From positions 1,550,001-1,614,000 of the forward strand of contig OZ017795.1 in the NCBI GenBank assembly GCA_963969395.1: a stretch of 64,000 nucleotides of DNA, written 5' to 3'. Source of the stretch: Pseudoscleropodium purum (lineage: Eukaryota > Streptophyta > Bryopsida > Hypnales > Brachytheciaceae). The notes below the pieces were generated by a model, which had not been told where the DNA came from, did no database searches, and saw nothing but the letters and a program-made list of their open reading frames with translations. The translations under genes and the position numbers were made by a program. Each line of letters starts with the position of its first letter. Positions within the stretch are counted from its first letter, which is position 1. This document shows positions 12,863 to 58,700 of the stretch, piece after piece.

Positions 12863-14332
12863 ATGGGCGATTCGAGGGAGGGGTCGCCGGATTCGGCGTA
12901 TTCCGCCGGGGAAGGCAATGGCAGTGCGCGGGCGCCTAGACCAGTTGAGGAGGATTCTGAGGAAGAGGAAGGGATGATTCGGCCTGAAGTCGAGGTCGAG
13001 GAGGAAGTGCAAGTGGAAGCAGAGCCCGAGGTCGAGGAGAGGGAGGATCGGAAGGCTGGGAGAGGGCGGAAGCGGTTGGTGAAGAAGGCGGTGGTGGAGG
13101 AGTCGGACGAGGAGGAGACCAGAGGCGGACGGCGTCAGGAGGTGGAGGTGGAGTCGGAGGAGGAAGACGAGGAGCCCGAGAGGAGGCGGACTGCGAAGAA
13201 GCCGCGAGGGGAGGAAAGGGTGAAGGATGTGTACAGAGAGAAGGGAGGGAAGGGGAGCAGCAGGGGAAAGAAAGGAGAGAAGGAAATGAAGGAGATGTGG
13301 GACTCGGTGGCGGGCAACGGCGATGAATCGGGGGAAGACGACGATCGGTTCATTGACGATGAAGGGGTGCCTGAGGAAGACCGTGTGGTGTACAGCGATG
13401 GGGAGGGATCGGATCGGGATCAGCGCCACCCTGAGGCCGAGGAGGCGGAGGAAGATGAGGAGGACGGGAGGTTATTCGGGAAGGGGAAGAAGAAGAAGAA
13501 GCTGGAGCGCACGCCGGAGGAGATTGCCATGTTTGTGGAGCAGTTCATGGCGAAGGTGGATGTGGCAGCCGAAACGGATGCGGATCTGAATCGAAACTCC
13601 AAGCCAGCAATCGAGAAGTTGAAGATGCTGCCGGAGCTTTGGACCGTGCTGCAGAAGCGGCAATTGCAGATGGAGTTTCTGGACCGAGGGGTGTTGTCCT
13701 CGCTGAAGGATTGGCTGGAGCCTTTGCCTGATGGTTCCTTGCCCAACATGAACATTCGCACTACTCTATTGAAGCTGCTCACGGATCTTCCCATCGACGT
13801 GGAGCAATTCGAGCGGCGGGAGCAGCTGAAGAAAAGCGGACTTGGGAAGGTGGTCATGTTTCTTTCTCGGCTACCGGAGGAGACACCTGCGAACAAGAAA
13901 CTGGCTAGAGATCTGGTGGACAAGTGGAGCAGGCCTCTTTTCCAGAAGAGCACAAGATACGAAGATTTACGAACTTACGATGAGGAGCGACCCATGCCAC
14001 GGAGAACGCCCCTGAAGAAAGCTCCAATGAAGCGTGCGAACATCGACAGGGCAGATGACTTGGATATGCTTCAAGGTGAGTTAGAACTAAAGCGGGGCGA
14101 TCCCGGCTACAGGCAACACGCTTCGAGACCGGAAGCTCTTCCTCTAGACTTCGTCCGGCGCCCCGAGTCGAAGGTCGACCCACACGAATTTCAGAACAGG
14201 GCACGGCAACAGCGGCAAGACGAGAAGCGAATGAAGATGAACAAGAAGCTTCAGCAATTGAAGACGACCAAGAAGAGCATGCAGGCATCCAAGATCAGCG
14301 TGGAGGGTCGTGGCGCTGTTAACTACTTTTAA
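12863..14332 (+). CDS. IWS1: Transcription elongation factor IWS1/SPN1 homologue
   Basis: A single uninterrupted frame of 489 codons from ATG 12863 to TAA 14330-14332. Residues 1 to about 210 are highly acidic and basic low-complexity sequence (poly-Glu, poly-Lys), as in IWS1 proteins. Residues about 215-362 form the conserved TFIIS N-terminal-like (SPN1 core) domain, including LKDWLEPLPDGSLPNMNIR, REQLKKSGLGKVVMFLS and LVDKWSRPLF. The basic C-terminus ends GRGAVNYF. IWS1 binds SPT6 and RNA polymerase II during elongation; in Arabidopsis it also acts in brassinosteroid-regulated transcription. The gene has no intron in its coding part. I chose ATG 12863 because it is the first ATG of the frame and the acidic N-terminus begins directly after it. 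Confidence 0.93.
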   Translation: MGDSREGSPDSAYSAGEGNGSARAPRPVEEDSEEEEGMIRPEVEVEEEVQVEAEPEVEEREDRKAGRGRKRLVKKAVVEESDEEETRGGRRQEVEVESEEEDEEPERRRTAKKPRGEERVKDVYREKGGKGSSRGKKGEKEMKEMWDSVAGNGDESGEDDDRFIDDEGVPEEDRVVYSDGEGSDRDQRHPEAEEAEEDEEDGRLFGKGKKKKKLERTPEEIAMFVEQFMAKVDVAAETDADLNRNSKPAIEKLKMLPELWTVLQKRQLQMEFLDRGVLSSLKDWLEPLPDGSLPNMNIRTTLLKLLTDLPIDVEQFERREQLKKSGLGKVVMFLSRLPEETPANKKLARDLVDKWSRPLFQKSTRYEDLRTYDEERPMPRRTPLKKAPMKRANIDRADDLDMLQGELELKRGDPGYRQHASRPEALPLDFVRRPESKVDPHEFQNRARQQRQDEKRMKMNKKLQQLKTTKKSMQASKISVEGRGAVNYF

Positions 14333-33047: not shown

Positions 33048-33846
33048 TAAAATGAGTGATTTCTAGGAAAACGAATTCTGAAATACACTTTTTTTACAAA
33101 CATAGCAAATTTTGTTGTCTACAAAGATAGAAAATTTATATATTTATACAAAAAGCACATATGCAAGTGCAAGTTCTTTCCAAAAACAATGGAGTTTATA
33201 GAAAATAATGATTAAATATATAAGCATTAGTGTATACCCTATAGAATGTCAGTTTACAAAGACACTGAAAACTATATAGTGGATACATTTGGTAGCATAT
33301 TACATGGTGCTCAAAGACTATGCTAGAGCCATCACCACCACTACAAGTGGATTGTGTCAAAGGAAGTGACTACAACGTTCAAAAGATGAAGGCTTGATGA
33401 CAACAAGGTGTTCGAATCGCTTGAATCATCAATGGAGACAAAGTTAGAGGAAAATAAGTACAAAATTTGTAGAACCCAACTTTGCCTCCAAAACTAAGGA
33501 ATAATAACTATATGATTTCTTTCATTTCCAAGTAGACAAAGCACCTAAATCTTAAAATATTTATGGGTGAAAAATTTGATGCATCCAAGGATGATAATAT
33601 ACTAGGAGGTCTCCAAATACGTAGGAATGCATTAAGGTATTTTATCACTTTTTAAATACTAGACTATTGAAAGTCCAAAAGTAGTTAAAAATGGCATACA
33701 TCCATTTTTTGCTATTAAGTGATCCTGTTTTCTTGCATTGTTAATATTAAGGTTACAAGAGTGTACTTGGTGTAGAAGGAAGACAATGTTAATTGAATAT
33801 TCCTCTCATTTCCTTGCGCCTTGTTGCATTTTTATTAAATACACAA

Positions 33847-33943
33847 TTTGGTTAGTAGACATACTAGTGATTGTTGGCAATTTTATGGAGTTAAATTTTC
33901 TTTCTATAGACATTAAGTATTAATCTGAGCTATTTGTTTAGTA
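33847..33943 (+). repeat. 5' part of LTR-like repeat, interrupted by the large element
   Basis: This 97-bp piece and 45593-46629 together match the inverted copy at 54609-55735. The piece ends in GTTTAGTA, the target site of the large element. Landmarks are TTAGTAGACATACTAGTG and GGAGTTAAATTTT. Confidence 0.75.
33936..33943. repeat. Left 8-bp target-site duplication
   Basis: GTTTAGTA directly precedes the left terminal repeat CAGGGTTGAC. The same eight bases directly follow the right terminus at 45593-45600. Confidence 0.95.
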
Positions 33944-34180
33944 CAGGGTTGACACGACGTCCGGACGCGGACGCTGTGTCCGTAGCGTCCGTTGACATTC
34001 GCGGTCCCGGCGGACGCATCGTCCGTCGGGACCGCCCCGTCCGTTGGTCCGTCCGCCCCGCCCATCCGCCCCACCCATCCGCCCCACCCATCCGCCCCGC
34101 TCGTCCGCCTAGTCCGCCCCGTCCGCCCCGTCCGCCCAGACGGCCCTATTTCCCCCGACCGCCCTACCCAAACTGCCCCG
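33944..34180. repeat. Left terminal GTCCG-rich repeat cluster
   Basis: After the terminal CAGGGTTGAC comes CGTCCGGACGCGGACGCTG, then an array of GTCCGCCCC-like units, many spaced 9-10 bp. The CpG sites are largely intact in an AT-rich setting. In hAT elements, subterminal repeats bind transposase; that role is inferred here. Confidence 0.85.
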
Positions 34181-34581
34181 CAGTCACTCTCTTAATCTTT
34201 AAACAATTAAATGTTAAATGAAGTGCAATGGTTCGCGATTTGTTATTAAAACAATGTCTCTCATAAGTTGAAAGATTATAAAGTTTGACTACGAGTCCAT
34301 GATAGTCTTGAAACTATGAAAAAATTCCAATTCATTTTCAGAAGGCAAACTAAAAAAATTTGTGACTTCAAATATATATATATACTATTTAAAAAATCAA
34401 GATCAACAAAAATACAAACATAATCAATATGGGCAAAATGTATTCAATTTAATGTAGAATACCATACATTGTGCACATTTGACTAATTGCACATATAATT
34501 TTTTTCATTCCAACTCTATATTTCTAAACTAATTTTTAATGCCTATATAACCTATTCAACTACTACTTCTGCACTACCAAT

Positions 34582-36075
34582 CTAATATAAATGGCGGAAA
34601 TGTTCATCTGGCATCGGCCAACGATATATATTAGAAAATTGCGTAATCACATGGGCCAAACTAGTATTTTCATCGTCAATCTTCGAAGAAATGCGCTTCA
34701 AGTAAGCATAAAACACTTTTGCAAAGTCATGAAAGGAAAATTGTGTCGCACTAGGTGTTTTAAGTAGCACGTTGAAATACGCCTCTGACATGTTGTTTCC
34801 ATTCATCCGCCGAGCAATTTTTCGAACGGCATACTCTTCCGACTTACGTGAATACATCGGAATGACTTCCACATCTGCACCTACTTTATGCAAATATGCA
34901 ATACGTGGATCCACCCACCATCTCCTCTGCAAAGTTTGTTTCATCTCATCTGTTGATGTGAATGTGTACAAAGACTTCATTGGTTGAGAAGCTAAGGTGG
35001 TCATGCCTCAATCGCAAACCCCAATATACGCACGTGACTCATCCTCTGGAAAATGCAACAAGATGTTGTCCGGAGAAAGATCATTGTGCAAATGTCCAAC
35101 AAGATGCACTGCATACATTATATGCATAAACGCCCATGTCAACTCCATGCGCTTCTTCCGATATCGCCCTAAATAGTGAGCTTTTACAACTTCCTCTTCA
35201 GTTGGATTTGTATACATGAAACGGATTTGAATGTTGTCTGGATAGTCCTTATCCATATTTAACATTTGTCGAAGAGTTCCACCATTCCACCAATACGCAT
35301 AACCTTCACACGTCGTTCCGTGCACTGCAGCAAATTGTATCACACCCGCGTGTGGAATTCGAACAACCATTGATTCGTTTTGATGTTCTAACTTTGCAAA
35401 ATCGGGTCGAGTTTGGTGGTGAATGGATTTCTTCACCACAAACTCCCAATAAGGAAGTATTCCTGGACATCCTTCAATACGAACCTTTCGAATCGTTGCA
35501 TATCCACCTCTCATCGTTCTATCATCAAGAGCAATCACGCATGCTGTATCTGGAAGTGCTATGAGGTGCCGTTTGGTCCTTTCCGCTTCAACAACTCCAT
35601 CATTGCTTTTCCACCAACCAATTGAACCAACTTGATTGTGCTTTTTGGCGAATGGAGTACATCGCCCCCTAAACAAGTCCGCTTTCAGAATCATTTCTTC
35701 AAACTGGACGTCATTGGGTCAATATTCCTTGTCATATTTAACCAAAATGACTTTGGAATTCCATAAAGCGTCATGAACCTTGTTCTCCAAACATTTGGTA
35801 AAGTACGTTTTATGCATTTCGTCATGCCACTTCGCCACATTCAATGCATTCAACAACATCTGTGTCATGTCTACCTTGAATTTAAACATGCACTCCTCTT
35901 GATATCTAATGTACTTATTGTCTAAAGACAATGTTGTTTCCGATTCATAAAATTGAACGATGCGCTCGATCATGAATTTCTTGCATTCTTCCGAAGGACT
36001 TTGGCGAGTTACTTCCAAGTTCGATGGTCCCTCTCCATGTTTAAGCTTCGCAACCTTCTTCTTCCCCTTCGGCAT
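34582..36075 (-). pseudogene. Element gene A: protein-kinase-like protein with two in-frame TGA codons
   Basis: One reading frame of 498 codons runs from ATG 36075 to TAG 34584-34582, broken only by TGA at 35721-35719 (codon 119) and 35010-35008 (codon 356). Codons 1-118 encode a charged N-terminal region starting MPKGKKKVAKLKHGEG. The kinase region follows: glycine-rich loop RGGYATIRKV (about 189-198), Lys in WEFVVKKS (about 215), hinge-like WWNGGTLRQML (about 263-271), and the catalytic loop HNDLSPDN (330-337), with HND replacing HRD. The Mg-binding DFG motif would read D-TGA-G at 355-357. A DWG-type motif there would need TGG. About 140 further codons form a C-lobe. All key kinase residues are otherwise present. 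The family is not one I can name. The GC-rich cluster at 36270-36445 lies upstream. Confidence 0.75.
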
Positions 36076-36269
36076 CGTGACAAATGAAATTGATATAGAT
36101 CAAATTTTTTAATTTGAAATTGAATTCACGCGCAAGTGTCCAAAAAATTGGCAACAAGGGGGCCCCAATAAACCACTCTTGCCTTGCCTTGAAAAGGAAC
36201 CAATGGAGGATGAACCACAAAGCCCTCCACTCCACCTTGCATTCACAAGGGGCAAAGCAAAAGTGACAA

Positions 36270-36445
36270 TGCGGACGGCCCGTCCGCCCATCTTATTGGG
36301 GCGCGGACGGCCCCAAACCGTGTGCCCGATCGGACGGGCCGGGGGTGGCGGACGCATCGGTCGTCCGCCTCCTCGAAACCCTCGAGCCCCGTTTGCCCGA
36401 TCGGACGGCCACGGGCGGACAAATCAAGCGTCCGCCCGATCCGAT
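36270..36445. promoter_or_regulatory. CGGAC/GTCCG cluster upstream of gene A
   Basis: A GC-rich block inside AT-rich DNA with repeated GTCCGCCC, GCGGACGGCC and palindromic CGATCGGACG units. It begins about 195 bp upstream of the gene A start. A TATA-like CAATAAGA on the minus strand at about 36290-36297 lies about 217 bp before the ATG, matching the spacing at genes B and C. The motifs are those of the element termini. Confidence 0.6.
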
Positions 36446-37039
36446 TTATTTTTCATATTTGAAAATAGAATCTAAAGAAGAACCACTAATTGTCTAATTT
36501 GGGCATTTCTTCATACGAATAAGAAATCATTTTAGTTTTGAGCAATCGTTGAATGAAAAATAAAAAAATTTCAAATATTCAAATAATTTCATCTTTCATA
36601 AATTAATTAGAAATACATTTATATCATTTACGAGTTTCTAAATGTAATAAACACACAACAATAATTTCAAAATATACACCATGCTAGTACATATTTAACC
36701 TCAAATGCTAAATTCAAAAATAGACATAATATAGCTCTTACAAAATTACATTTCTTCTTCATATTTTTATTATTTATCAAAGTCGCTTATAGCCTTATAC
36801 ATCAACGCTATTATAAAATAATACAATGATGTCTTCAACAATATGCTTGCTTACATACATACTTGGTGTACACTATTACACAACACTTTTTGAAAAAGTG
36901 AACAAAATTGTTGTTCAAAATTGTTCTATTCATTTAAAATTTTGTACTACTTCTACCAATCTAGTGCTCTATACTTGTCGTGAGAGTAAAAATGAGAAAA
37001 TCGAGCAAATACATGCTCACTATATACTTGCATGTTTTT

Positions 37040-38302
37040 TTATTCGGAATCTGAATCGAACTCAAATTGTTGACCGCTGCCTCTTCTTTGTAATCCAATG
37101 AATGGACCACCTCCATAGTTTCCGTAATATCCACTCGGTGCACCTCCTTGTCCATAATTTGAACCTCCAAAAGTGGGAGGAGGAACCGGAGTAGTAGGCT
37201 CTAATCCTCTTTCATTTGAAGCCCCGTAATAAGAGGCCCCATGATGCCCGTATGAATCACTTCTAGTTGATCCCGGATAGTATTGGACGCTTCCGTGAAG
37301 AGAGCAACTATACTGCGGGGTTACATGGCTTCCTCCACTACCTTCGGAGCCCACTTGAGTGGGCATCGTATAATATGAACTAGATTCAGTAGACCTACCA
37401 TAGTGCGTATTGCCATAGCTACCTGTCCCACCTAGAGAGCCAATTTCAGGGGAAGTGCCATAACGAGAACCAACTACACTTGAACCACCATAATGCGTGG
37501 ATCCATAGCTCCCTCTTCCACCTTCATATCTATTTTGAGGATTGTAACCAGAGTATGAACCACCTCTTCCATGTTCAGATTCTCGCGTTCTATGTTCATG
37601 TCCGTAGGACCCACCATGCCTATCTTGCCGTCCACGATCTTGAAGGCTTCTGCATATTGCCTCTTGCATTTGTTATTTGAATTCAATTTGTTCTCGTTCT
37701 TCTACCCGCTCGTGTCTAACTCCAAATGTGGCAGGCGCTTGCATATCATCGTCATCATCGTCATCTGTCCACGCATCTTCAGCATCTCGTAGAACAACTG
37801 AAGGTTGTTGTAGATAACTTCGATTCGACCACTCTGGCATGCAATCGGTTGCGCCCCTCCACTGTATATCTATAACGGCATCCGTGCGCATATAGTTCTC
37901 CACATTGCGACCTGTAGCAGTACGCCAGTCCACGTCCTTGTGGAGTACAATCTCTGCCCAAACCATTGCCATAATATTATAATTCATTATATTTGGTTTG
38001 GCACTTTTAATGCCAAGAACTCGATGCACTTATGTATATTGTTGTTTGAAGTGCTCACTTTGGCACGTAGACATTTGTCCTTTCCAACGTGGCGCTTGGT
38101 GCTCTACACGTTCACGTCGCCAAAGTTTTTGAATGTGAGTCATTTTTACATACTTCTTGCACATTGAGCAATCTCACACTCTTGTTGGTTTTTCTTCCCA
38201 TCCCAGTTCACCCACGCACAATGGATCGGCCCAAGCATCCCAATCGAACAATTGGGGTCTTCCCTTTCGACTACTTTTTTTGGGTGTTCTATCTTTCGGC
38301 AT
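37040..38302 (-). pseudogene. Element gene B: shared N-terminal domain plus Gly/Tyr/Ser-rich tail
   Basis: One frame of 421 codons from ATG 38302 to TAA 37042-37040, broken only by TGA 38176-38174 (codon 43), TAA 38032-38030 (91) and TAA 37675-37673 (210). It starts MPKDRTPKKSSRKGRPQLFD, a basic N-terminus. Codons about 43-135 hold a domain, with MCKKYVKMTHIQKLW and NYNIMAMVWAEIVLHKDVDW, that aligns with MCKTYVKMYHIDKLW and NYSVACMVYAELILERKIDW of gene C. An acidic run (DDDDDDD) and a charged stretch follow. Codons 211-420 are low-complexity, rich in Gly, Tyr, Ser and Arg (RGGSYSGYNPQNRYEGGRGS and similar), ending FEFDSDSE. Such tails are typical of RNA-binding or phase-separating proteins. 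No family is recognised. TATA and GC cluster lie upstream at 38524-38745. Confidence 0.7.
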
Positions 38303-38523
38303 GATGAAGCTGAAGCAAAGAGAATGAATCAATTAGAAAGCTTAAGAACCAAAATTTTGATTTAATTAATTAATTAAAATTTTACAAGCGTGAACTTTGT
38401 GAAAATTTGTAACAATGCCATAACAATCGTTCACTCAAAGCGGAAGGGGCGCGCAGAGCTTTCAATGCACTGGTCCGTCCACTCCAAAAGAGAACGATTG
38501 TTCGAAATGAGCCGTCCACCTCC

Positions 38524-38745
38524 CTATATATATATGCGGACGTCCAGATCATGCGGACCACATCAGTCCACGTGTCAATCGGACAGCCGTATCGGGGCGG
38601 ACGGGGCGGACGCCCGATCGGACGGACAAGGCGGACGGGGCGGTTGGGGCGGACGCCGGATCGGGCGGACTGGGCGAACGGAGGACGGGGCGGACGGGTA
38701 TCGGGGCGGACGGGGCGGTCAGGCCGGACAAGGTGGACAGCTCAT
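38524..38745. promoter_or_regulatory. TATA motif and CGGAC cluster upstream of gene B
   Basis: On the minus strand a TATATATATATAGGG motif at 38524-38535 lies about 222 bp before the gene B ATG. Directly upstream of it is a dense array of GGGGCGGAC units (38590-38745). This arrangement of cluster, TATA, then about 220 bp of leader is the same as at gene C. Confidence 0.65.
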
Positions 38746-39215
38746 TTTAAACCCTAAACCTAATGAAGGAAATTGTTCTTTTTTCAAAATCTCACGGTAG
38801 AGATGTTTAACCCGTAAAATTCTTTTCACTAAAAACACTTCAAAACTCCCAATAGTAGTGCAAATATCAAGTCTTAGAAGAAAAATACTTTGGGGCATAT
38901 GTAACCGTAGGATCTTGTAGTAAATTAGTTGGAAAAACTGTGGAAAAAATTTTAGACAAATCCACCATTTGGATTGTAAGATATTAGATATTGAATGTTT
39001 CATTTAAGGGGGCTACTCAATTATGTCTATTAATGAACAATTGATAGGCTAACAAACCTAACTTAGCATGTATTTTAATATTTGTTGCAATTGTTTTAGG
39101 AATATTATAACATAACACTATTATAATATTCTTATAAATGATATAGTACTAAATCATTTCAAAATCAACAACATTCGAACACAATCTATCAATCTTGTCT
39201 TTGATACTCCTTTAA

Positions 39216-39280
<65 letters not shown>

Positions 39281-41185
39281 CATAAAATATATTAGATAAA
39301 TCAACATGAACAAATCAATGATTATATATTTCATAGATCTATTCTTCATCAATCAAATAAGAGTGCATGTTCAAATATAGACAAAGATGGTTTCTCCATT
39401 TGTTGCCAAAAAATAGATAAACAAATAAAGAAAGATATGAAGTGAATGTTACTTAGAGAATTGAAAAGAAAGAAATTGAAGTACTCAATTGCATTTTATT
39501 AAATTGAAAAAATGCATGTGGATGGCATGAATTAATCTTCATAGATGCTAAACTCATACGAGTTGCATTTCAACATTTATGATTTATGCAATTGATTGAA
39601 TTGAAAGCTCTTGTAATTACATTTTCAAATTTTCGATTCAATCATTCAAATTTGCAAGAGTGATTTATGATAGATTTATAACTTCAAATGTGAAAGCATT
39701 CAATGCCTTTATGCGTTTGTTCATCAATATATTAATTTTAGATAAATAATATATTTTTTTTATAACATATGCATAAACCATTACATTAAAAAAAACAAAA
39801 AACTAGGAGCCAAGCCAAATAGGCTAGTCAAATGAAGAGAACAAGAAAATAAGAGCCCTACGAGACAAAAAACAAAGGAAAATAAAGAAAATATCAAAAG
39901 GATTCAAAGGAAGAAACAAGATGCATTCTTGCAAGACCGTAGAATACATAATGATTTCAAAATCCAAACACAAATATATTTTCTATTTCAATGAGAGCCA
40001 AAAATGAACTACCTTGCTCTCAAAGATTGTACAATGTACACGTTATACAAAACGAACATATAATAGAAAGAGTAGAAGACATTGTTTATAATGATTGAAA
40101 ACTGAAATGATTTTTTTTTTCTATGTAGAATATTTTATGAAATGTAACAATGTATTTTATTATCATAATAATTGATAGAAATCTTTGTGCAATACATAGA
40201 AACATTTCATTCATGTGGAATTTTTTCATTTATTTAGGATTAAAATGAAAGTATTATACTCTAGAAAGTACAAACCAAAAACAATACCATATACCTAAGT
40301 TCAAAAGTTTGCAATTGTTTCGTGAATTCATTTTGAAAACTCAAACAAAAAAATATTTTATAATCAATATCTTATTTATTTGAATCATTTCAAAAATCGA
40401 ATTCCGAATTCAATTCCTATTTATAATAGAAATTATATTTGTCAATTTTTTAGATCTTTAAACAATGAACCCTCTTTTTTAAAATTAATATTTAAAAACA
40501 TCTGAAATAAGAATATTGGAATTACCCTTCAAAATAAATATAGCACATGTATAATGTATTCTACTCCACCAACTCAAGTAACGAATTTTTTTATGTTTTT
40601 AAGAAAAAATATAGCCATACATGATTTGAAAGTTAAAACATTGATTCTTTTTCTTTGTTTTCAAATCTAATCAAAATCTCATTAAAAAATATGAAAGACT
40701 CGATGTTCATTTGAAGATCGTGATGCACTTTTAATGAGAAATCACAACCTTTCATTAAATATCATGAGGTTGAAATCCATTTAACTGTTATTCTAATTAT
40801 GTATTGGGACCTTTTTTTTAAATTTCATTTGCTTACAATGAAAATGGAATTGATTATTTTTGCAAAACATTTGATTTCCTAATGAACTTTAAAAAAATCC
40901 CCACCATCTTCAGATCTTCTCAAAACCTATTCAGAGGAATAATATCAGTAAATAATTCAAAAATATTCAACTTAACCACATTCCCCTCATTCGTAAAACA
41001 ATTTAGGGGAGAAAAGAAAAGGTTTAGGGTAATTAGGGTATAAGGTTTAGAGTTTACATTTAAAAAAAAAAAAAAATGACAAACCAATTACATTGATCCT
41101 CATTTAGCAGTGATTATTAGGCTGTTTTATTTTTGAAATGTTACTGCTCTTTTTGAATAATAATGGCCTCACAGGATGCACCAAT
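38746..41185. other. AT-rich spacer inside the element
   Basis: About 2.4 kb between the divergent promoters of genes B and C, without coding potential. It includes a (TA)n run at 39218-39276. Composition resembles host intergenic DNA, so a nested insertion or captured sequence is possible, but I see no boundaries. Confidence 0.5.
39218..39276. repeat. (TA)n microsatellite
   Basis: About 29 consecutive TA dinucleotides in the spacer between element genes B and C. Confidence 0.95.
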
Positions 41186-41189
41186 TGAC

Positions 41190-41506
41190 AGTTGGGCGGA
41201 CGCCGGCGGCGGTCAGTGTTTAAGTGGGGCGGTCGGCGTGTCCAAAGCGCGGACGACGTCGGAAGGCGGATAGTGCGGACAGTCCGGTCGGACGCGTTGG
41301 TCGGACGGGCGGTCGATCGGGGCGGTCGAACGAGGCGGTCAGTCAGGGCAACGGGCGGACAGGGCGGTCGGACGGACGACGCATCCGCTGCCGAAGCAGA
41401 CGTCGTCGGTCCGCGCGGCAGACGTGAGGTTCGGGGCCGCTTCGCGCGGTCCGGGGCAGGTCCGGCGGCGGACGGCCTCTAGGTCCAGCGGCAGACGGCT
41501 ATAAGG
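41190..41506. promoter_or_regulatory. CGGAC cluster and TATA motif upstream of gene C
   Basis: About 300 bp of repeated GGGCGGAC, GGCGGTCGG and CGGACGACG units end in a TATA-like CTATAAGG at 41499-41506, about 215 bp before the gene C ATG. The motifs match the element termini and the clusters before genes A and B. Confidence 0.65.
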
Positions 41507-41716
41507 GTGGAGTGACTTTCATTTCTTCTCACTTCAATTCTCCTTCGGTGCCAAGTTGGATGTGCTACTATTGCTTTATGCGCTAGTTGCTCCTACGGGG
41601 TGGAGAGTTGGGGTCCTCTATCTTGTGTTATTGTGTTGCGGTTGGGCCATCATTTTTGACTATCACATGAGATTTTTTTATTCACTTCAATTGGTTATTG
41701 AATTCAATTGACAATC

Positions 41717-44700
41717 ATGAACGGCGAAGGTGATCGAAATATGGATGGGGTGACTCCAGGAAGCGAAGCCAAGAAAAAGAGCAAAGTGAAGGGGGCTACA
41801 CATGACCTTCGGTTTGACATTTTAAATGACCCTACAATTACAGTAGAGAGCGGGTGGGAAGATGAAGATGCGGAGTATTGGACATCAAAAATGTGCAAGA
41901 CCTATGTTAAAATGTACCACATTGACAAGTTGTGGCCTCAGAAGTCGCACATGAGTCATACACGGGATTTTTGTTGTAAACCATGGACTTGCAACAACAA
42001 ACATTTTGTCCATCGATTTGAGGAGGTGTGGCGTGTTCTATTCGGAAACAAACGTAGAAGTAAAGGCTATATTAATTATAGCGTGGCGTGTATGGTTTAT
42101 GCGGAACTTATATTAGAGCGCAAGATCGATTGGAGCACGTTTCTGACGACAACAGCTTGCCCACTTCTATTTGAAGCCAATCAAAAGGACATTCCCGACT
42201 TGTATAATTCAGAGGGAGAAACAGAAAAAGTATTAAAAAATACTATTGAGGTGAAAACGGATGGTGTGGAGAAAGCCTCAAATGTTGAAGAATTACAGTC
42301 TGTACAATCTTCAACAAAAGCAATCAATGAAAGCTCTTCGAAAAATGTGGGGAAAGATGTGGAGAAAGATGTAGAGGCGCAGGAGGGTGAAGTCTTTTCC
42401 ACAACTCCAACGCGTTTGACCTTTATACCAAATGTTGCGGCACAAACGCAAACGAAGTTTGTAAACAAAGGCAAGGTTTGCACGGAACGCGGGGAAACTT
42501 CAAAAAGTAAAGTAGACGAAGTCTTGGCGGAGAAAGTGGCAAAGGCTAATGCTACAATTGATAGTCTGATAGCCAACAATTGTTTTGATAGTTTGGTCTA
42601 CAAATCTCCGCCTATGCATCAAGGCGTTGAATCTAGTCCAGCGTTAAGTTTAGAAGACAAAGTACATACGCCTCGTGGACAAGGCGTGACGATTGATAAT
42701 ATATCCTCATTATAGAGTTCCGAGCGTAAAAGGCGGGCGGAGGAGTTTCCGTTTACAACGGCATTGCCAAGTCCTCTACATCGAACCTTGCAAAACATGT
42801 CCAATCTAAAACAATTGGAAAATCTTTTGAAGCTCTCGGTTCAATTTGCTAACCTTCATGAAGAAATAGACGGATCGTCTAACCCCGATGATGGTGCTAC
42901 TACTGTTCCAATGAGTCCACTTGCAGATCCAAAGAATGTTGGATATATACTTGATACAGCTTTCAAGATGACGATGTCAGCTGAATTTTTAGCGCAAGCT
43001 GCTCCGACTTTTATGAATTTGGCCAAACAGTTTTTTTTAATAGCACCAGAGATGTTGAAAGGTGCTATAGCATTTCAGAATCTCACGAAGACTTTCGGAC
43101 CACTTTTCGAAGAAAGAGATGTTCACATACTACAATTGGTAGAATATGAGAAGAAAATTGTTGACCTTGTAGGAGTGGAAGCAAGGTGCAAAGTGTTGGA
43201 GTTGAAATTAAAGACTTCAGAGAGTGAGGTTGAACATTTAAATCAACAATCATCGAGGCAAATGGAGGAGTTGATGAAGATGTGTAAACGGATTGCAGAA
43301 TTGCAAGGGACCTCCAAAAATCCAAGTGAGGGTGTAATCTCACCAGTGATTGTACTCGGAGACAGTCAAGAGACTTAAGAGAGTGAAGATAAGCTCTCTC
43401 TTCCTTTTGATAAGGCCGAAGCAAGCGACAACCCTGCCATTGTGAATGTACAAGAAAGTCACGATATGAGCATGTTAAAAGCGACACAACAACCATCAAT
43501 GGAAAAGCTTTCATCCGTTTACGTGAATGCGGAGACGCAAACGGAGAGTTGTGACTTTGAAGAGTTGAAGCATAAATTAGAGGAGGCAATTGAAGTAAAA
43601 GGAATTGTTGAATCTAAGTTGAATCGATTGCAATTGTCCTTGGATTTAAAGAATTTTATGCCATCTAGCGGCTTGGAGTCTCGATGGTTAGCATGGGTAC
43701 AAAGACTCCAAGACAGACCCTCTGTAGTATCTCGAGCAATGGCAGGTCTTCAAACATTGGCAATGGAGTCGAATAAAAATTGCGATGCCATTCAAAGCTC
43801 TTTGAGTTGGTTCAAGACTATGTTTGACCAACATCCTTCAAAGGGATATACGGAGATCACATGTTGGGGAGACATGGATGCTATGTTTGAGCAGTTAAAC
43901 CACACACAGAAAAACCAAGCTCCACCCATCAATTGGGCCTTTTAAGTAGAGGAAGGATGGGTCCCTTATAACACACTTTCAGCACACATCAATGTGAAAG
44001 ACAAGCGAGTAGTGCATACTTGTGATTCAGCCTCTCCAATCTTGGATGGTTGTTGTAGCCTTTGCCAAGGCCTCTTCGGACCGAAAGGTGTGGTAACCAT
44101 GGGCCAATGTCGCCACACTTTCCATGTCACTTGCATTGTGAAAGCATCACTCATTCGTTCAATGTGTGCCGAGTGTCGTAGTCCATTGAGTGCTAGGTTC
44201 TACGAAATGTTTGGTATCTTGGAAGCTATGCCTCCAGGCCACGAGTACAATCGTTGGAATCTTCCTCTTGATCAAACGCCGTACAAATTCCAAAATTATC
44301 AACATTGGAGGAAGCCAATCCGGTGGAATGCAAATGAACAGAGGCATGATTTGTATGAGGAATCTCAGCAACCATTAGATTTGGATGTGTGGATGACTCA
44401 CAATAGAGAGGTGGAATTGCGGGCTCGAGGAATCGTAGATGACGCGGCCCGTGAAATGTTTTGTCGCAACATGGGGGGATATTGAAGCTTGCAACACAAA
44501 AAGTTCTTTCGTTTTCTAGATAAAAAAGTGGAGAGAGGACCAGAAGACAGTTGGGTGGAGGTGAACCATGGAAAAGAGTTCGATGAGCAGTATAAGGCAT
44601 ACGACCACACCCTCGTAGATAGGGCCCTTCTATTGTCGAAGTTGGAAGAGGCTGCAAAAGTTCGTGCTGTCTATGATACAAATGGACTAACAAGCACAGG

Positions 44701-45115
44701 ACATTCATCTGTAGATGTGGCAGCAGCATTTGATAGGTGCATTGGCGATATTATAGGGCATTGGAAGGCTTTCCTATTGGATGAAGACTGCCTCACAGTA
44801 TGGCAAGGGAAAGGAGATGATGAAGTTGTTCAAGCGATGGTAGATCGTGTGGAAAGCAATTTGAGAACCTTGAAGGCAGACGAAGTCGATTTATCACCAA
44901 AAAGAAAACAAAAAAGGAAGTGTGAAGAGGACGATGACTTCTCTCCGGAAACCAAGAAACAATTTCATAAGGTGGACATCGAAATTCAATCTAGAGGGCG
45001 AATAGTCCGTCCAAGTCAACAATGGTCAATTCGTCAATCATCTGCTAAACTCCTCGGTACAACAGATTTTCCTTTTGTTTTGGGAAAAGGTAGTGGTCCA
45101 TCCGGTGGAAAGTAG
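41717..45115 (+). pseudogene. Element gene C: RING-H2 protein with the domain shared with B
   Basis: One frame of 1,133 codons from ATG 41717 to TAG 45113-45115, broken by TAG 42713 (codon 333), TAA 43376 (554), TAA 43943 (743) and TGA 44483 (923), with no frameshift. Codons about 50-145 carry the domain shared with gene B (YWTSKMCKTYVKMYHIDKLW; NYSVACMVYAELILERKIDW). The middle is charged and probably coiled coil (for example RCKVLELKLKTSESEVEHLN near 470-495). At about 778-820 a RING-H2 finger is visible: CSLC, then CRHTFHVTC, then CAEC. RING-H2 fingers usually act as ubiquitin E3 ligases. A basic, Lys-rich region near 1060-1100 could be a nuclear signal. I see no transposase catalytic triad, but large parts are unassigned. 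A TTG upstream at 41708 is less likely as start. Confidence 0.7.
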
Positions 45116-45410
45116 GATTTGAGAAGAATTTTGTTTTTTTAAAACAATGGTCCTTTCATTGTTTAAAAACAAAAAAGAATGTGAAAGATTTAGATCTTAA
45201 AAAGATCGTATAGGATTCAATAGTGATATTGGAACTATGTTTTAATGTATTTTGTTTACACATATATATTTATATATAAAGATGCTATATTTTCATTTGC
45301 GTATAAAAATATTTTTATATGTACATCTTATTTTACGTGGATGCATTCATTTTTGATTATGTAACATTCAAATTACATAACAATATAAAATTTTCTAATG
45401 ACTAATGGCA
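45116..45410. other. 3' flank of gene C within the element
   Basis: AT-rich sequence between the gene C stop and the right terminal cluster, probably 3' UTR and terminator. No ORF is present. Confidence 0.5.
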
Positions 45411-45417
45411 ATGTGAA

Positions 45418-45592
45418 GTCCGCCCCGTCCGCCCTGTCCATCCGCCCCGTCTGGTCAGTACGCCCGACCGCCCCGGCCATCCACCCAGCCTGTCCGCCTT
45501 CCGACGGCGGGAGGGACGCTGCGTCCGCTAGCATTCGGACGTCCGGAAAACGGACGCTATTTTGGGGCGGATGTTGAGATTCGTCAACCCTG
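45418..45592. repeat. Right terminal GTCCG-rich repeat cluster
   Basis: GTCCGCCCC-type units, then GCGTCCGCTAGC, CGGACGTCCGG and finally the inverted terminal repeat GTCAACCCTG. The outer part mirrors the left end: read inward, both ends give CAGGGTTGAC and then GCGTCCG and CCGGACG variants. Confidence 0.85.
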
Positions 45593-45600
45593 GTTTAGTA
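45593..45600. repeat. Right 8-bp target-site duplication
   Basis: GTTTAGTA directly follows the right terminus, identical to 33936-33943. Confidence 0.95.
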
Positions 45601-46629
45601 GCAATTGTTTTTACCTTTGGTACTTTTAGGCCAAATCCATTTGTTAAGTAGATTTGGATTTTTATAAGAAAAATTCACCATTAAAATTTTAAAAGAACAT
45701 TTTCATAGTTTTGTCTTTATCTTTGAGAAGACTCAATGCTTGAATTGTACCTCTATTGTTGTTGCCTCGATTGGTTATTGTGATTTATTCTTTGATCTAA
45801 TTGTTGAGAGTTTGAAGACTATTATGTCTACAAGATATAAATCTATAGCATCAACTCCCAACTCCGATTGAGCAATAGTCTTCTCTCCTATAGTGGAATA
45901 GTCTTCTCAAGGATAGTAGAATAGAGCTAAAGTCTCTAGTAGAAAATGCACCCTTGATCAATAGACCTTAGTCACCTTAGACAAGTTGATATGGACCAAA
46001 TTAACAAAATTTTGCTAAGCCCTAAACCTAAGCTCTTCCAATCCCATTAGACTATCATCACTACATCAAAAAGTTCCTACCACTAATTTAGTGTTGATTT
46101 AATGATTTCAATTGTTTTGAGTATGATTACAATTAATTGATAGATACATACTAAAAAGTCATTGTAATAGTTCCAAAACAAAATTAAATTTTCAATGCAA
46201 TTACATAATTTTTATTTAAGTATATATTAAAAGCATTTTAATACTAAAAAAATCTTTATTTTGGATTTTTGGAGTGCTAAAATTGTAGGAATGAAACTAC
46301 AATATTTCTTTTGGTACTATTTTGGCATTGATATGATGACACTTTCACTTTCAATATACCACTATGTTGTTAGTTGTTATGTCACTTTATACTTTTGACT
46401 ATGTTAGAATAAAAGCAAGTGCAATTGAAAAGGTTACAACGGATATATCTTTTACCTTATATATGTTCCCAAAGGATGGTGAGAGAATAGACCTTATTAT
46501 ACACTATTAGGAATGTGATATTAAAGAGGGCCAAATGCCCAAATGAAATGATACCCGCACAATAATCTGTTTCGATTGATATTCGGGGCCTAGATAAGCT
46601 CAGCAACGTCAAGGGTATCGGTATCAGGC
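45593..46629 (+). repeat. LTR-like repeat, copy 1 (main part)
   Basis: About 1.03 kb that matches the reverse complement of 54609-55640. With 33847-33943 it makes one repeat of about 1.13 kb split by the large element. Near its 3' end it has a TATA-like CTTATATATGTTCCC (about 46455-46470). It ends at GGTATCAGGC, which resembles the initiator-Met tRNA primer site of Copia elements (TGGTATCAGAGC). This suggests an LTR with U3, R and U5, but no retroviral-type ORF follows. Confidence 0.6.
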
Positions 46630-49433: not shown

Positions 49434-51245
49434 TCACCAATAATCACCACAAGAACAAACGCCATTTTGGAAGTGGTGAAAGCGATTAGCATCTCTCACA
49501 ACAATCTCTCGTTCAGTTGCCTTTGAAATAAACTTGGTTGCTGTATGGCAGTCTGAACACACTCGAAGATTCTTGAACACCCAAATTGGCTCTCCAGGGA
49601 GTGTCCACATGAGTCCGTAAGCAATATCCAACTTCTCACTATGGGAATGAAGAGCAAGCTCTTTCTCTTCCTCCTCAATGTTCCGCAACACTAGCAGAGT
49701 ATCCGGAATGTACCCTTCAGCCTTAATTTTCTCACTCAATCTCCTCAGCTCAGCATACATCTCCTTCGCTTCTGAGTGAGAAGTATCCCCTACGACGAAG
49801 TCATGGACCTTGTTATCAACTTCGATCCAGCTACGCCCTGGCTCCTTGCGTATACCTCTCTCCTGCATCATAGTGCGGACCCACAACACCTCCCACTTGT
49901 CAGCTGCAGCATAGATATTCGAGAGAAGCACGTATGGAGAAGCAACCATCGGTTCCAACTTGAGACACTCATTAGCGGCAAGTTTGCCCAAATCCACATT
50001 ACCGTACGTTCTACAAGCACCAAGCAAGGCTCCCCAAGTTGCACAATTTGGTTCCACCGGCATGTTGTCAATCAAGAGCTTTGCTTCCTCCAAGTGTCCT
50101 GCTCGGCCAAGAACATCCACCATGCAGGTAAAAAGCACCACAGTAGGCTCGATGCCATAATCTTGTGTCATAGCCAGAAAAAGTCTACGGCCCTCATCCA
50201 CAAGACCAGCATGACTAGAGGCCGACAACACTCCAGCGAAGGAGATCACACTAGGCTTCACCCCGTCTGCAATCATATTTTTGAACACTTCCAGGGCTTC
50301 GTGCCCACATCCATGGTCTGCAAGTCCATCAATGATCACGTTCCACGTGATCACATCACGATCCTCCATCCTATCAAACACTAGCCGTGCATCATCCAAA
50401 CTGCCACACTTTCCATACATGTGGACAAGCGCAGTGCCCACACGCAAATCCGACTCAAGTCCCGCTTTGAGGACATGCCTGTGAACCTCCTTCACCCACT
50501 CCAAAGCCCCTGCACATGCACATGGATTCAGAATGCTCGCAAACGTAAATGCATTGGGTTCGAGGCCTTCCTGTTTCATTTGGAGAAACAGTCCATATGC
50601 CTCCTGCTCAAATCCATGCTCTGCAAGTCCACTGATCATTATGTTCCATGACATCACGTCGTGGTTCTCCATTCACCAAAAAACTACTCGAGCATCATCG
50701 ATACTGCCACAATTTGCATACATGCGAACAAGCGCACTGCCCATACGAGCATCTGATTCAAGCCCGGCATGTCGTACATACGCATGAACTTCTTTGCCCC
50801 ACTGCAGAGCTGATGGATCGGCACATGCCTTCAGGATGCTCGAGAAAGTAAATGCATTTGGCTGGACCCCTTTTTGGCACATTTGATTGAAAAGTTCCAT
50901 TGCTTTGTCAGCATGATTGTGCTTTGCATAGCCTCCAATCATAATGGTCCAACTGAACACGTTCTTGTTCACAAGTTTATCAAACACTCCACGTGCATCC
51001 TCCAATTCTCCACACCTGATATACACGCTCACTAGGTTGTTTGCCACATATGTATTCTGCTCCATTCCACTCTGGTTGATGTAGTCGTGAACCTGCTTTG
51101 TGACATTAACATTAAGGTTTTCCTCCTTCAAGCACCGTCTCAAAACTTCAACATACATAAACGAGTCGATGGCCATGCCTTGTTCTAATCCATTCTTCAA
51201 ATTAACAATTGCTTCAGTCGTGCTTCTTGCAGTTTTCAAGGACAT
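49434..51245 (-). pseudogene. E/DYW-class PPR gene with one in-frame TGA
   Basis: One frame of 604 codons from ATG 51245 to TGA 49436-49434, interrupted by TGA 50675-50673 at codon 191. About ten tandem PPR motifs of P, L and S type are visible, such as NVFSWTIMIGGYAKHNHADK, GKEVHAYVRHAGLESDARMG and DVITWNVIIDGLADHGCGHE. E motifs follow (EPNCATWGALLGACRTYGNV; EVDNKVHDFVVGDTSHSEAK), then a complete DYW deaminase-like domain. In it, the zinc/catalytic residues are HSEKLDIA and CSDCH, and the chain ends HHFQNGVCSCGDYW. DYW proteins act in C-to-U editing of organelle transcripts. The style is that of moss PPRs. The stop sits where the helix B end VF-x-(R/K)-M is expected, so it probably arose by CGA-to-TGA or TGG-to-TGA. 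No transit peptide is evident from this start; an upstream exon is possible. If the stop is real, the gene is broken, or its C-terminal part is made separately from ATG 50672. Confidence 0.85.
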
Positions 51246-54608: not shown

Positions 54609-55735
54609 GCCTGATACCCTTGACGCTGCCCCGAACATCAATCGAAACAGATTACTGTGCGGGTATTGTTGCACTCGGCCCTCTTTAATATCACATCCCT
54701 AATAGGGTATAACAGGTTCCGGTCTCTCACCACCCTTTGGGAACATATATAAGGTAGAAGATATATCCGTTGTGGTCACCCTCCCAATTAGAATCTAGTA
54801 GCCTTTCCAATTGCACTTGCTTTTATTTTAACATAGTCAAAAGTATAAAGTGACATAATAACTAACAACATAGTGGTATATTGAAAGTGAAAGTGTCATC
54901 ATATCAATACCAAAATAGTACCAAAAGAAATATTGTAGTTTCATTCCTACAATTTTAGCACTCCAAAATCCAAAATGAAGATTTTTTTAGTACTAAAATG
55001 CTTTTATTATATATTTAAATAAAAATTATGTAACTGCATTGAAATTTTAATTTTGTTTTGGAACTATTACAATGACTTTTTAGTATGTATCTATCAATTA
55101 ATTGTGATCATACTAAAAACAATTGAAATTATTAAATCAACACTAAATTAGTGGTAGGGACTTTTTGATGTAGTGATGATAGTCTAATGGAATTGGAAGG
55201 GCTTAGATTTAGGGTTTAGCAAAATTTTGTTAATTTGGTCCATATCAACTTGTCTAAGGTGACTAAAGTCTATTGATCAAGGGTGCATTTTCTACTAGTG
55301 ACTTTAGCTCTATTCTACTATCCTTGAGAAGACTATTCCACTATAGGAAAGAAGACTATTGCTCAATGGGAGTTGGGAGTTGATGCTATAGATTTATATC
55401 TTGTAGATATAATAGTCTTCAAACTCTCAACAATTAGATCAAAGAATAAATCACAACAACCAATTGAGGCAACAACAATGGAGGTACAATTCAAGCATTG
55501 AGTCTTCTCAAAGACAAAGACAAAACTGTTAAAATGTCATTTTTTTATTTTAGTAGTGAATTTTCCTTATAAAAATCCAAATCTACTTAATGAATGGATT
55601 TGGCCTACAAGTACTAAAGGTAAAAAACAATTGCTACTAAACAAATAGCTTAGATTAATACTTGATGTCTATAGAAAAAAAATTTAACTCCATGAAATTG
55701 CCAATAATCACTAGTATGTCTACTAACCAAGTAGT
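54609..55735 (-). repeat. LTR-like repeat, copy 2 (inverted, contains the empty target site)
   Basis: The reverse complement matches 33847-33943 joined to 45601-46629, with small differences throughout. At 55635-55642 it has one GTTTAGTA (read as TACTAAAC on the plus strand), exactly where copy 1 carries the 11.65-kb element. The same TATA-like and tRNA-primer-like motifs are present near its 3' end (about 54609-54770). With no retroviral-type ORF next to it, it looks like a solo LTR or an unrelated dispersed repeat. Confidence 0.75.
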
Positions 55736-58700
55736 GTAAGGATTTGATCTACTAACCAAGTAATAAAAGAACTAGAGGTAAAAACAATTGCTACTCCCAT
55801 CGCCTACTAATACTCTTGTAAGTTATGACTTTGTTTACTATTTCTACTTCTATGCACAGCATCAAATATTTCTGTAAATTCCCACAAGTCAAGCATTTAC
55901 TCTACTTTGTTGGCTTGGTTTGCTATCTTAGGCATACATCAATTTGTAGCCCCTTCTCACATTTGATTATATAGGAAGGAGGCTAGATTGATCAACTACC
56001 CAAAAAAAATGTTGGACTTGGCTCTAGCAAAGTTTGCCCATAAATTATAAGGGTTAGATGGGTTTGTGAACTTTGGGGCTTTTGGTTTGGCCCATTGGAT
56101 AGGAGGAAGATAATCATTGTTATCCGGGACATATTGATATTCATCATCGTCTAGTCCTTCATGGATTGGGGGATCTTGATCTATCATGACTTCTTTGGAT
56201 TTCATTATCTAAATGATTTCTTTTAATTGAAATGCATTCTATCAAACGGTGCATTCAATTTTAGTTTGTAATGCAATTTACTATCATTTGTGTGAATCTA
56301 AGAAGTTGTATTCTAATTTATAGCTATTAGTTATATCAATACATACATGATCTCTAAAGAAGTAACAATATTCCAGCAAAATGAATCTCTTCTAACTATA
56401 AGCACATGTGATATGCAATTTCAACAAATTTATTATCAAAGATTGCTCTTTCACAAAATTCAATTGCAAACATTCTTAGTAAATCTATTGAGGCCCTACT
56501 TTGAAAGTGATTATGGTCACAATGCACATGGTTAGAATACAAACTTGCATACTTGATGTCTATAGCATCCTAGGACAAACCAAAAACTCTAATAAATGGG
56601 AAAAAAATCTATACTATAGGCTCTAATCAAGCAAGGATGGTGCTTGTGACTCTTCTAGGAAATGGGTTGCATGCTTCTCATACAGTTTAACACCAACATG
56701 GAGTTGCTGTATTTGTTTCCAATTTGGTGATAGAGTGGTCTCAAAAGTCCACCACTCAATGACAAGCATTTTGACTTCCAATGCTAAAGCATCACTTCTT
56801 GTTGCTCTTCTTGGTGGACTCCAAAAAAAATCCGTATTGTTGCCAAGGATGTGAACCGCTACAATGTGCATGATATTCTGCCAATCAATGCCTAACGCCC
56901 TGGTAAAACTTCTTTAGCTTCCAAATGAAGACGTTGCTAAATGACATAGCATGTGTTTGGCATTAAAATATATGCTATGTCATTGAATTTTTTCAACCAA
57001 AACATTACTTGCCACTCCTTCCTTGAAATTTGAAAGTAGAACATGGTTTCACTTGATCTCTGAAATGTTTTGCAAGTAATCCGGTAAGATAGATTTCAAG
57101 AATGGATGAAAAATCATCTTCTCAAAGATGCATTCACGACTACTTTGCTAAATCACACCTTGCTGGTGTAGTCTTCAAGTACATGGCATAGTCTCATACC
57201 AACATCCCTGTCACATGTTCATCGTTTGATGGAGCACCCTCATGGACAGAAGTTGAATTAGTCCTAGGATTAGGAATTTGAGACTTTTGAACTATTGCCT
57301 TTAGTTTGAATCTTGATTGTTGTTTGTACAAGCAGTTCTTTTTTTTTGGTGCAACTAACTCTGACTTATCTAGACCATTAGTTCTACTCTTTTTTTTCTT
57401 TTTCTCTTCTCTGACCCTATTTATTAAGAACTAATACTATTGCAATGCCAAATTTATCTATGCATGATATTCATGGCAACGCATACACGTTAGACAAAAA
57501 AATAACTAATTTAACATATGAAGGTTCTGTAAACTTAATGTATCAATTAAGTTGTGTCCTAGTTGAGACAATTGATACAGTTATCCTAAGATTAATTGAG
57601 AATGTATAGTAGCATAATTGAAAGAGCGCACATAGAGAGTACAATGGCATCATTGATACTGGTCTAATTGAATGCTTGAAGTCTTGAAGACTTCAATTTT
57701 TTAAATTTCAACGTGAGTTCAATCTTTTTTCATGAATTCTAGCATTTTATACATCCAGAATACAATCCATGGTCCACAAAATTTGGAGTACATAGTAAAT
57801 AAGTAAAAAATAGGGTAAATTTCAAGTATTTTTTTATTTGTAAATGAATTTACAACTTCAAATTTTGCCCAAACCTTCTACGAGTTCTTAGAGTTCAGAA
57901 ATTTAAAATATAATTGTGGCTAATTAAAATAGTTTTTTTATGTATAAAATTAAAGAGTGTATATATTTTCTATTTGTACAACAATTGTATGCACTTCTAA
58001 CTCAATCTTATCAATTCAATGATTGACCTATTGGGTTTTGAAACATATGTATTACCAAAAATCTTGAATAGCTCCAAAAGGCATTAGGCCTTTCCTAATC
58101 TGATTTCTATTAATTTGTTATAATTTGAACAAAAAGCAAACATTTAGATAAAGTGTACCAATTCTTTTGGAATTGATACCATTTAAAGTTGAATTAGCCA
58201 TATTAGAGAGTACATGTACAAAAAATGATATAATATCACTTACAAATAGAATGATTATAAAGCCCAAATCAAACCTCATTTGCCCATAACTCGTGCATGC
58301 GGTGTCCAATCTAAAAATGCCACATCATTTTGGAAGCCAAAGAAGAAGACCTACATTACTCTCTATTTGAAAAAAATCTCCCTTTTCTATTTAGAAGCTC
58401 AAATGTAGACCATTTTGTTTTGACCTTAATAAAGATCTATTTTTAGTGAAGTTAAATACGCCATTGGATACTTGCTTCAAAATACTTTTCAAAAATATCT
58501 TATGCATTATCATCCGATCTTTCAAATGGCAGCATTTTGTGGATGAAGTTTTAAAAAACAAAACTTCATCTACCCATAACTCATCTCTGTGATATCCAAT
58601 CCAACAATGCCATGTCATTCTGGAGAATTGAAAGGGAAGACCTATGTCCCCCTCCAAGCACAAATCAATCATCCTTCTTTGTTTAGGAGCTTAAATGTAG

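Follow-up and report, generated by a model that had tools for sequence, protein, structure and literature searches.

The window, that is, the whole 64,000-nucleotide stretch of Pseudoscleropodium purum DNA that was analysed, contains a transposable element with three genes, A, B and C, all of which are long, intronless frames. Copies of the element with these three genes are referred to here as type II, and sister elements that have the same ends together with a transposase gene as type I. The element is bounded by short terminal inverted repeats (TIRs) and a target site duplication (TSD), and the features that define it as an insertion are as follows.

33944..45592, plus strand: the complete type II element with genes A, B and C, 11,649 bp long, defined by TIRs and TSD, empty site and collinear genomic copies
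33944..33953, plus strand: left TIR, CAGGGTTGAC, 10 bp
45583..45592, minus strand: right TIR, CAGGGTTGAC, 10 bp
33936..33943, no strand: left TSD, GTTTAGTA, from the identical 8-bp flank and the empty site
45593..45600, no strand: right TSD, GTTTAGTA, from the identical 8-bp flank and the empty site
54628..55738, minus strand: paralogous target site that is empty and has GTTTAGTA only once (55635-55642), from alignment to both element flanks

An insertion with an empty target site

A reading of the letters of this DNA without database searches (hereafter the sequence-only reading) had proposed an 11.65-kb element with 10-bp inverted ends and an 8-bp duplication, and the CAGGGTTGAC ends, the GTTTAGTA flanks and the empty site confirmed it. 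The TIR pair has 0 mismatches over 10 bp in the window copy, which places it within the 10–25 bp of hAT-type repeats. The flanks of the element (33840-33943 and 45593-46589) align to a single uninterrupted inverted stretch, 55738-54628, through one GTTTAGTA, with 1,020 matches and 64 substitutions (of 1,084 aligned bases) and 36 gap columns. The gap closest to the octamer is a single base, 7 bases past GTTTAGTA. Because the flanks match one continuous stretch with a single octamer, the element went into an arm of an inverted duplication that was already there, with an 8-bp duplication of the target, and 54628-55738 is the unoccupied target.

As a control, we block-shuffled the window 60 times and counted pairs of 10-bp inverted ends with identical 8-bp flanks, 0.5–30 kb apart. 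The shuffled sequences held a mean of 0.18 such pairs per shuffle, or 0.017 when at least half G+C was required. There are 3 such pairs in the real window, and the 1 that is G+C-rich is the element itself (33944-45592); the other 2 are A+T-rich, and one of them is part of the inverted duplication.

The inverted duplication (33840-46589 minus the element, and 54628-55738) is about 1.1 kb long and 5.9% diverged, and flanks a PPR-DYW gene (49434-51245, minus strand) whose frame a single in-frame stop interrupts near 50673. Inspection by eye of the outer edges of the inverted duplication showed no target duplication. Elsewhere in the window, at 12863-14332 on the plus strand, lies a host gene with a TFIIS/Med26-type helical bundle, the product of which we take to be IWS1-like.

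Genes A, B and C and the decay of the window copy

The three genes of the element are arranged as follows.

34582..36075, minus strand: gene A, 497 codons, encoding a divergent protein kinase, with stops in codons 119 and 356
37040..38302, minus strand: gene B, 420 codons, with an N-terminal domain in common with gene C and a low-complexity tail, interrupted by stops in codons 43, 91 and 210
41717..45115, plus strand: gene C, 1,132 codons, with the B-type N-terminal domain, a predicted long helix and RING-H2, interrupted by stops in codons 333, 554, 743 and 923

The kinds of protein that the sequence-only reading had listed, namely kinase-like, RING-H2 and low-complexity, are all present, but the open reading frames that it had to work with are fragments of frames broken by stops. 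For example, four plus-strand frames in the right part of the element share one frame, and together make up gene C.

The Pkinase domain was matched in 26 of 27 aligned gene A members at E values of 0.01 or lower, 3e-10 being the best; the sequence from the window reached only 0.008, under Pfam's cut-off. Residues K, E, D, N and D at positions 215, 234, 332, 337 and 355 are identical in all 27 rows, and correspond to the catalytic Lys, the Glu, the HxD Asp, the Asn and the DxG Asp. The protein database contains 60 relatives of gene A at 24–70% identity, some of them full-length, and two of these (P0040 and P0054) are named as sequences of the moss Ceratodon purpureus. Another relative, P0020, is filed under a Bacilli MAG (a metagenome bin) and is probably eukaryotic contamination.

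The N-terminal domains of genes B and C match each other (BLASTP E 2e-19; profile probability 99.7). The only domain recognised in gene C is the RING: zf-RING_2 was found in 15/15 gene C relatives at E up to 0.01, with the window copy under the cut-off, and all eight RING ligands are kept in 16/16 aligned rows. Structure modelling of gene B was confident only in the N-terminal part (about pLDDT 90), and comparison of this domain with solved structures gave no convincing fold match. The model of gene C was poor (pLDDT 46.6), so that this protein may hide a nuclease fold. Relatives in the protein database number 15 for gene C (31–94% identity) and 41 for gene B (35–69% identity, certain ones across a short part only), and for both genes some are full-length. 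The C-like protein P0006 and the B-like protein P0087 sit on contigs that are both 17,649 bp long, suggesting that this pair is linked elsewhere as well.

The window copy carries nine in-frame stops, four in gene C, two in gene A and three in gene B, and no frameshifts were seen in the three genes. At eight of the nine stop positions most aligned relatives have one or two residues in common, while codon 333 of gene C is poorly aligned. Judged from the residues of the nearest relatives, a single C-to-T or G-to-A change fits every stop but one, that is eight of the nine; it does not fit codon 743 of gene C, which is Glu in 15 relatives. When gene C was compared to P0005 (94% identity), 26 of the 33 replacements assigned to the window copy were C-to-T or G-to-A and 7 were transversions; a further 19 replacements were not polarisable, and 17 were assigned to P0005, mostly in its divergent tail. 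The decay of the window copy, mostly C-to-T, looks like the loss of methylated cytosines, although the sequence contexts are mixed. Values of dN/dS between copies ranged from 0.27 to 1.08, so selection within the host genome is only weakly visible; such values would fit, but do not prove, a history in which the genes were formerly selected and are now mostly decaying.

Copies and sister elements in the host genome

The sequence-only reading had called for a genome search for other copies, a check that it largely passed; the same ends were indeed found elsewhere. When the host genome (313,191,705 bases) was searched with the first 200 bp at the left end, 2,645 first-look candidates came up, of which 40 were scored; 40 of the 52 matches listed are the end itself, including the window's own. 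Among the 39 others scored, we inspected 31 of the best-scoring ends (30 fetched stretches and L007) for gene A, which adjoins 30 of them. The exception is a 236-bp element (L036) that has the same ends and the TSD GCCCAAAA and no gene. An element of about 300 bp, nested in the C42 copy and read by eye, also has the same ends, the TSD GACGGGGC and no gene.

The gene B search gave 1,314 first-look candidates. Scoring of 100 of these produced 101 matches, consisting of the window's own, a split copy matched in two pieces, and 98 further matches over the whole length at 87–92%. Ten of the 12 copies with a stop-free gene B were fetched, a small and chosen sample of type II. The sequence-only reading had asked whether each copy carries the same three genes, and eight of the ten have A, B and C in the same order; the two exceptions have rearranged pieces (C42) or lack gene A (C44:1164000). 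Five of the ten, one of them the copy without gene A, lack some parts. In five of the ten, 99–100% of every segment inward of the 5' end could be aligned to the window element at 85–98% identity, and the variable 5' end was 57–95% covered; the CGGACG-rich parts are the most variable among type II copies. Both own ends are present in six of the ten (11.7–12.1 kb). The anticipated 8-bp duplications flank four of these six, two of them exact (GCCTTGCT and ACTCAAAC) and two with one mismatch (GACAATGC/AACAATGC and GCATTCTA/GCATCCTA), and the copies so flanked are 11,711–11,880 bp long; the remaining two of the six showed no target duplication.

No hAT domain was detected in the window element, either in genes A, B and C or in the noncoding parts scanned, or in the middle of one other type II copy. 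A search of the host genome for Dimer_Tnp_hAT gave 664 candidates, and all of the 150 scored were above the cut-off; the same search of 14 control genomes gave no matches. At least seven of the 40 scored left ends have a Dimer_Tnp_hAT match 6.8–7.7 kb inward on the same strand, and at those seven ends gene B does not occur among the matches listed. Three of the seven (C48, C45 and C44), picked by their hAT matches near left ends, were fetched as type I elements, and measure 9,723–9,784 bp (about 9.75 kb). All three contain gene A, DUF659 (E 2.8e-27, 2.1e-21 and 3.2e-32) and Dimer_Tnp_hAT (E 2.4e-10, 7.1e-9 and 2.7e-9), and none contains gene B or C at E 1e-6. Two of the three have an exact 8-bp TSD (ACTCCACC and CTCAAATT), and the third has no target duplication.

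Some gene B or hAT-domain matches form opposite-orientation pairs with identical scores, about 13–62 kb apart (C41:19755455/19772716, C41:19636026/19653544, C45:21388701/21401561, C46:392460/405915 and others), suggesting large recent inverted duplications in the host genome.

When five type II elements were each compared to the three of type I, all 15 comparisons revealed the same two large blocks common to both types, the left part with gene A and the AT-rich middle, the latter split in two in 2 of the 15. At the right end, the final 108–129 aligned positions are common to types I and II, as compared with the window copy. Identity of gene A is 94.2–96.2% between types versus 94.6–96.5% within type II, while identity of the AT-rich middle is 92.6–94.7% between types versus 95.3–97.3% within type II. 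Because gene A is equally similar between and within types and the middle is not, the two forms are close kin, among which gene A may be exchanged; the middle separates the types and indicates that they are partly separate lineages. The modules and CGGACG arrays of the window element are as follows, none of them assigned to a strand.

33958..34134: subterminal CGGACG/CGTCCG array at the 5' end, with 11 sites
36272..36434: CGGACG array of 8 sites, upstream of gene A; the first type I-shared block ends at 36418 or 36444
36445..38758: segment with gene B, not common to type I in the comparison of the two types
38537..38712: CGGACG array of 8 sites, upstream of gene B; the second type I-shared block starts 47 bp past it, at 38759
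38759..41293: AT-rich middle, common to type I at 92–93%, in which no coding match was found
41197..41474: CGGACG array of 7 sites, upstream of gene C; it contains the end of the second shared block, at 41293
41294..45467: segment with gene C, not common to type I, where a hAT transposase gene occupies this place
45426..45556: CGGACG array, 3' subterminal, 5 sites; type I-shared sequence starts inside it, at 45468 or 45484

There are 47 CGGACG sites in the window, and 39 of them are in these five arrays, one at each end of the element and one upstream of each gene. Five further type II copies have the same five arrays, and the three type I elements have four. All module borders except one lie in or near the arrays; in type I, the second shared block starts some 410–435 bp past the nearest array, so the coincidence of borders with arrays is imperfect. 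Because most module borders fall at or inside arrays, we infer that cassettes may have been exchanged there.

Relation to known transposons and a possible role of the gene set

The hAT elements are textbook single-gene cut-and-paste transposons, and the TIR of maize Ac begins with CAGGG. Like Ac/Ds and Hermes, the window element has an 8-bp TSD, a short TIR starting with CAGGG and short repeats that cluster in roughly the outermost 200 bp at both ends, and movement of non-autonomous forms in trans by an autonomous one is also a hAT feature. The 8-bp duplication is found in the window copy, for which there is also the empty site, in four of the six two-ended type II copies (at most one mismatch) and, exactly, in two of the three type I elements. 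As in non-autonomous hAT elements, the ends are common to a transposase-bearing partner in the same genome (3/3 fetched); a hAT-domain transposase of its own, which is required only of autonomous members, was not recognised in the genes and scanned noncoding parts of the window element. It is unlike hAT elements in having three genes and no transposase, with repeats also upstream of each gene, and the type I sister is unlike them in its additional kinase gene. The size is also unusual, as the sequence-only reading had rightly said of this hAT-type transposon: excerpts of a source on the superfamily give a typical length of 2.5–5 kb (PMC3942097), a usual trait rather than a strict criterion, compared to 11,649 bp for the window element and about 9.75 kb for the same-ended sisters that carry a hAT transposase. 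The earlier description of the genes as cargo-like is too loose a label, because A is also present in the sister, in which B and C are missing and the transposase gene takes the position of C.

The element is real, and it is unusual: a hAT satellite by kind, it is novel in its size, its recurring gene set and its cassette structure. The window element has no recognisable transposase and has collinear copies elsewhere in the genome; sisters combine gene A with a transposase between the same ends, and the short elements have no gene. From these sequences, it is highly probable that the window element belongs to a high-copy hAT family as a non-autonomous satellite with several genes, moved in trans by the sister. 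Points that count against this reading are the small, selected samples of fetched elements, the copies and the sister that show missing parts or no target duplication, the weak sign of selection, and the greater divergence of the AT-rich middle between types than within type II. The type I transposase would recognise the CAGGGTTGAC ends and the subterminal CGGACG repeats, and would move both forms as well as the short elements in trans, by cut and paste. The arrays would be the natural counterpart of the AAACGG hexamers within about 200 bp of the Ac ends, to which Ac transposase binds according to an excerpt (PMC3260210), and of the subterminal repeats that Hermes uses, again as excerpted (PMC10368747).

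It is exceedingly improbable that chance inverted ends surround unrelated genes with no transposon present. Perfect inversion is limited to 10 bp, as might be expected of a coincidence, but the empty site refutes this explanation, and the dispersed collinear copies with different 8-bp flanks and the shuffle control also contradict it. We consider it very unlikely that the A-B-C set is self-sufficient, with B or C, whose N-terminal domain is without a recognised relative, acting as a transposase of unknown type. The presence of gene A at 30 of 31 other left ends inspected, the contigs of equal length with B-like and C-like proteins, which would allow the pair to be old, and the confidently modelled gene B domain without a convincing fold match are consistent with self-sufficiency; however, the same-ended sisters encode an ordinary hAT transposase, the 8-bp TSD and the CAGGG ends are hAT-like, and the sole recognised domain of gene C is a RING.

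Pack-type and large cargo-bearing transposons carry genes besides a transposase, and the window element resembles them in its non-transposase genes. Capture of B and C by a hAT element, as host genes or fragments, would agree with the transposase gene that the sister holds instead and with the fact that kinase and RING domains are common in plants. Such an origin nevertheless seems very unlikely, considering that B and C are intronless, long and ordered alike in eight of the ten fetched copies, unlike assorted host fragments, that related families occur elsewhere, many of them full length, and that gene A is also in the transposase-bearing form.

A, B and C might serve the element itself, for example in regulation or anti-silencing via a kinase and a ubiquitin ligase, and the arrays before every gene would let an element-encoded protein control these genes. 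The VANDAL transposons offer a parallel in a superfamily other than hAT, and to our knowledge their VANC proteins are neither kinases nor RING proteins, so the window element, with its kinase and RING genes, differs from them in both respects. Excerpts on the VANDAL elements of Arabidopsis with VANC anti-silencing proteins describe them as multigene, with tandem short-motif arrays in noncoding regions (PMC5735166); the window element is likewise a multigene DNA transposon with short-motif arrays in noncoding regions, some before a gene, the likeness being one of motif arrangement. By analogy with VANC and its tandem motifs, our guess is that A, B and C could act in regulation or anti-silencing via the arrays.

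We put forward, tentatively and with some doubt, a hAT system of two parts, an autonomous member (kinase and transposase) and a long-lived partner (kinase, B and C), which have common ends and trade cassettes at the arrays. B and C might be array-reading proteins that, with the kinase, regulate or un-silence both members through phosphorylation and ubiquitin-ligase activity. In that case, mosses would harbour a multigene transposon equipped with signalling and ubiquitin machinery of its own. This is a high-copy family near 10–12 kb in which the transposase form has a kinase gene and the sister form has two other conserved genes instead of the transposase. Should the arrays be acted on by the kinase together with B and C, kinase and ubiquitin-ligase functions would join the ways in which plant transposons handle their host. 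The family also offers a test of why a form without a transposase persists and yet keeps its genes.

When the nine TSDs (GTTTAGTA to CTCAAATT) were compared by eye to published consensus sequences, 0/9 fit nTnnnnAn, given for Hermes in an excerpt (PMC10368747), and one, the window's own GTTTAGTA, fits nnnTAnnn, the consensus for Buster (PMC3517528).
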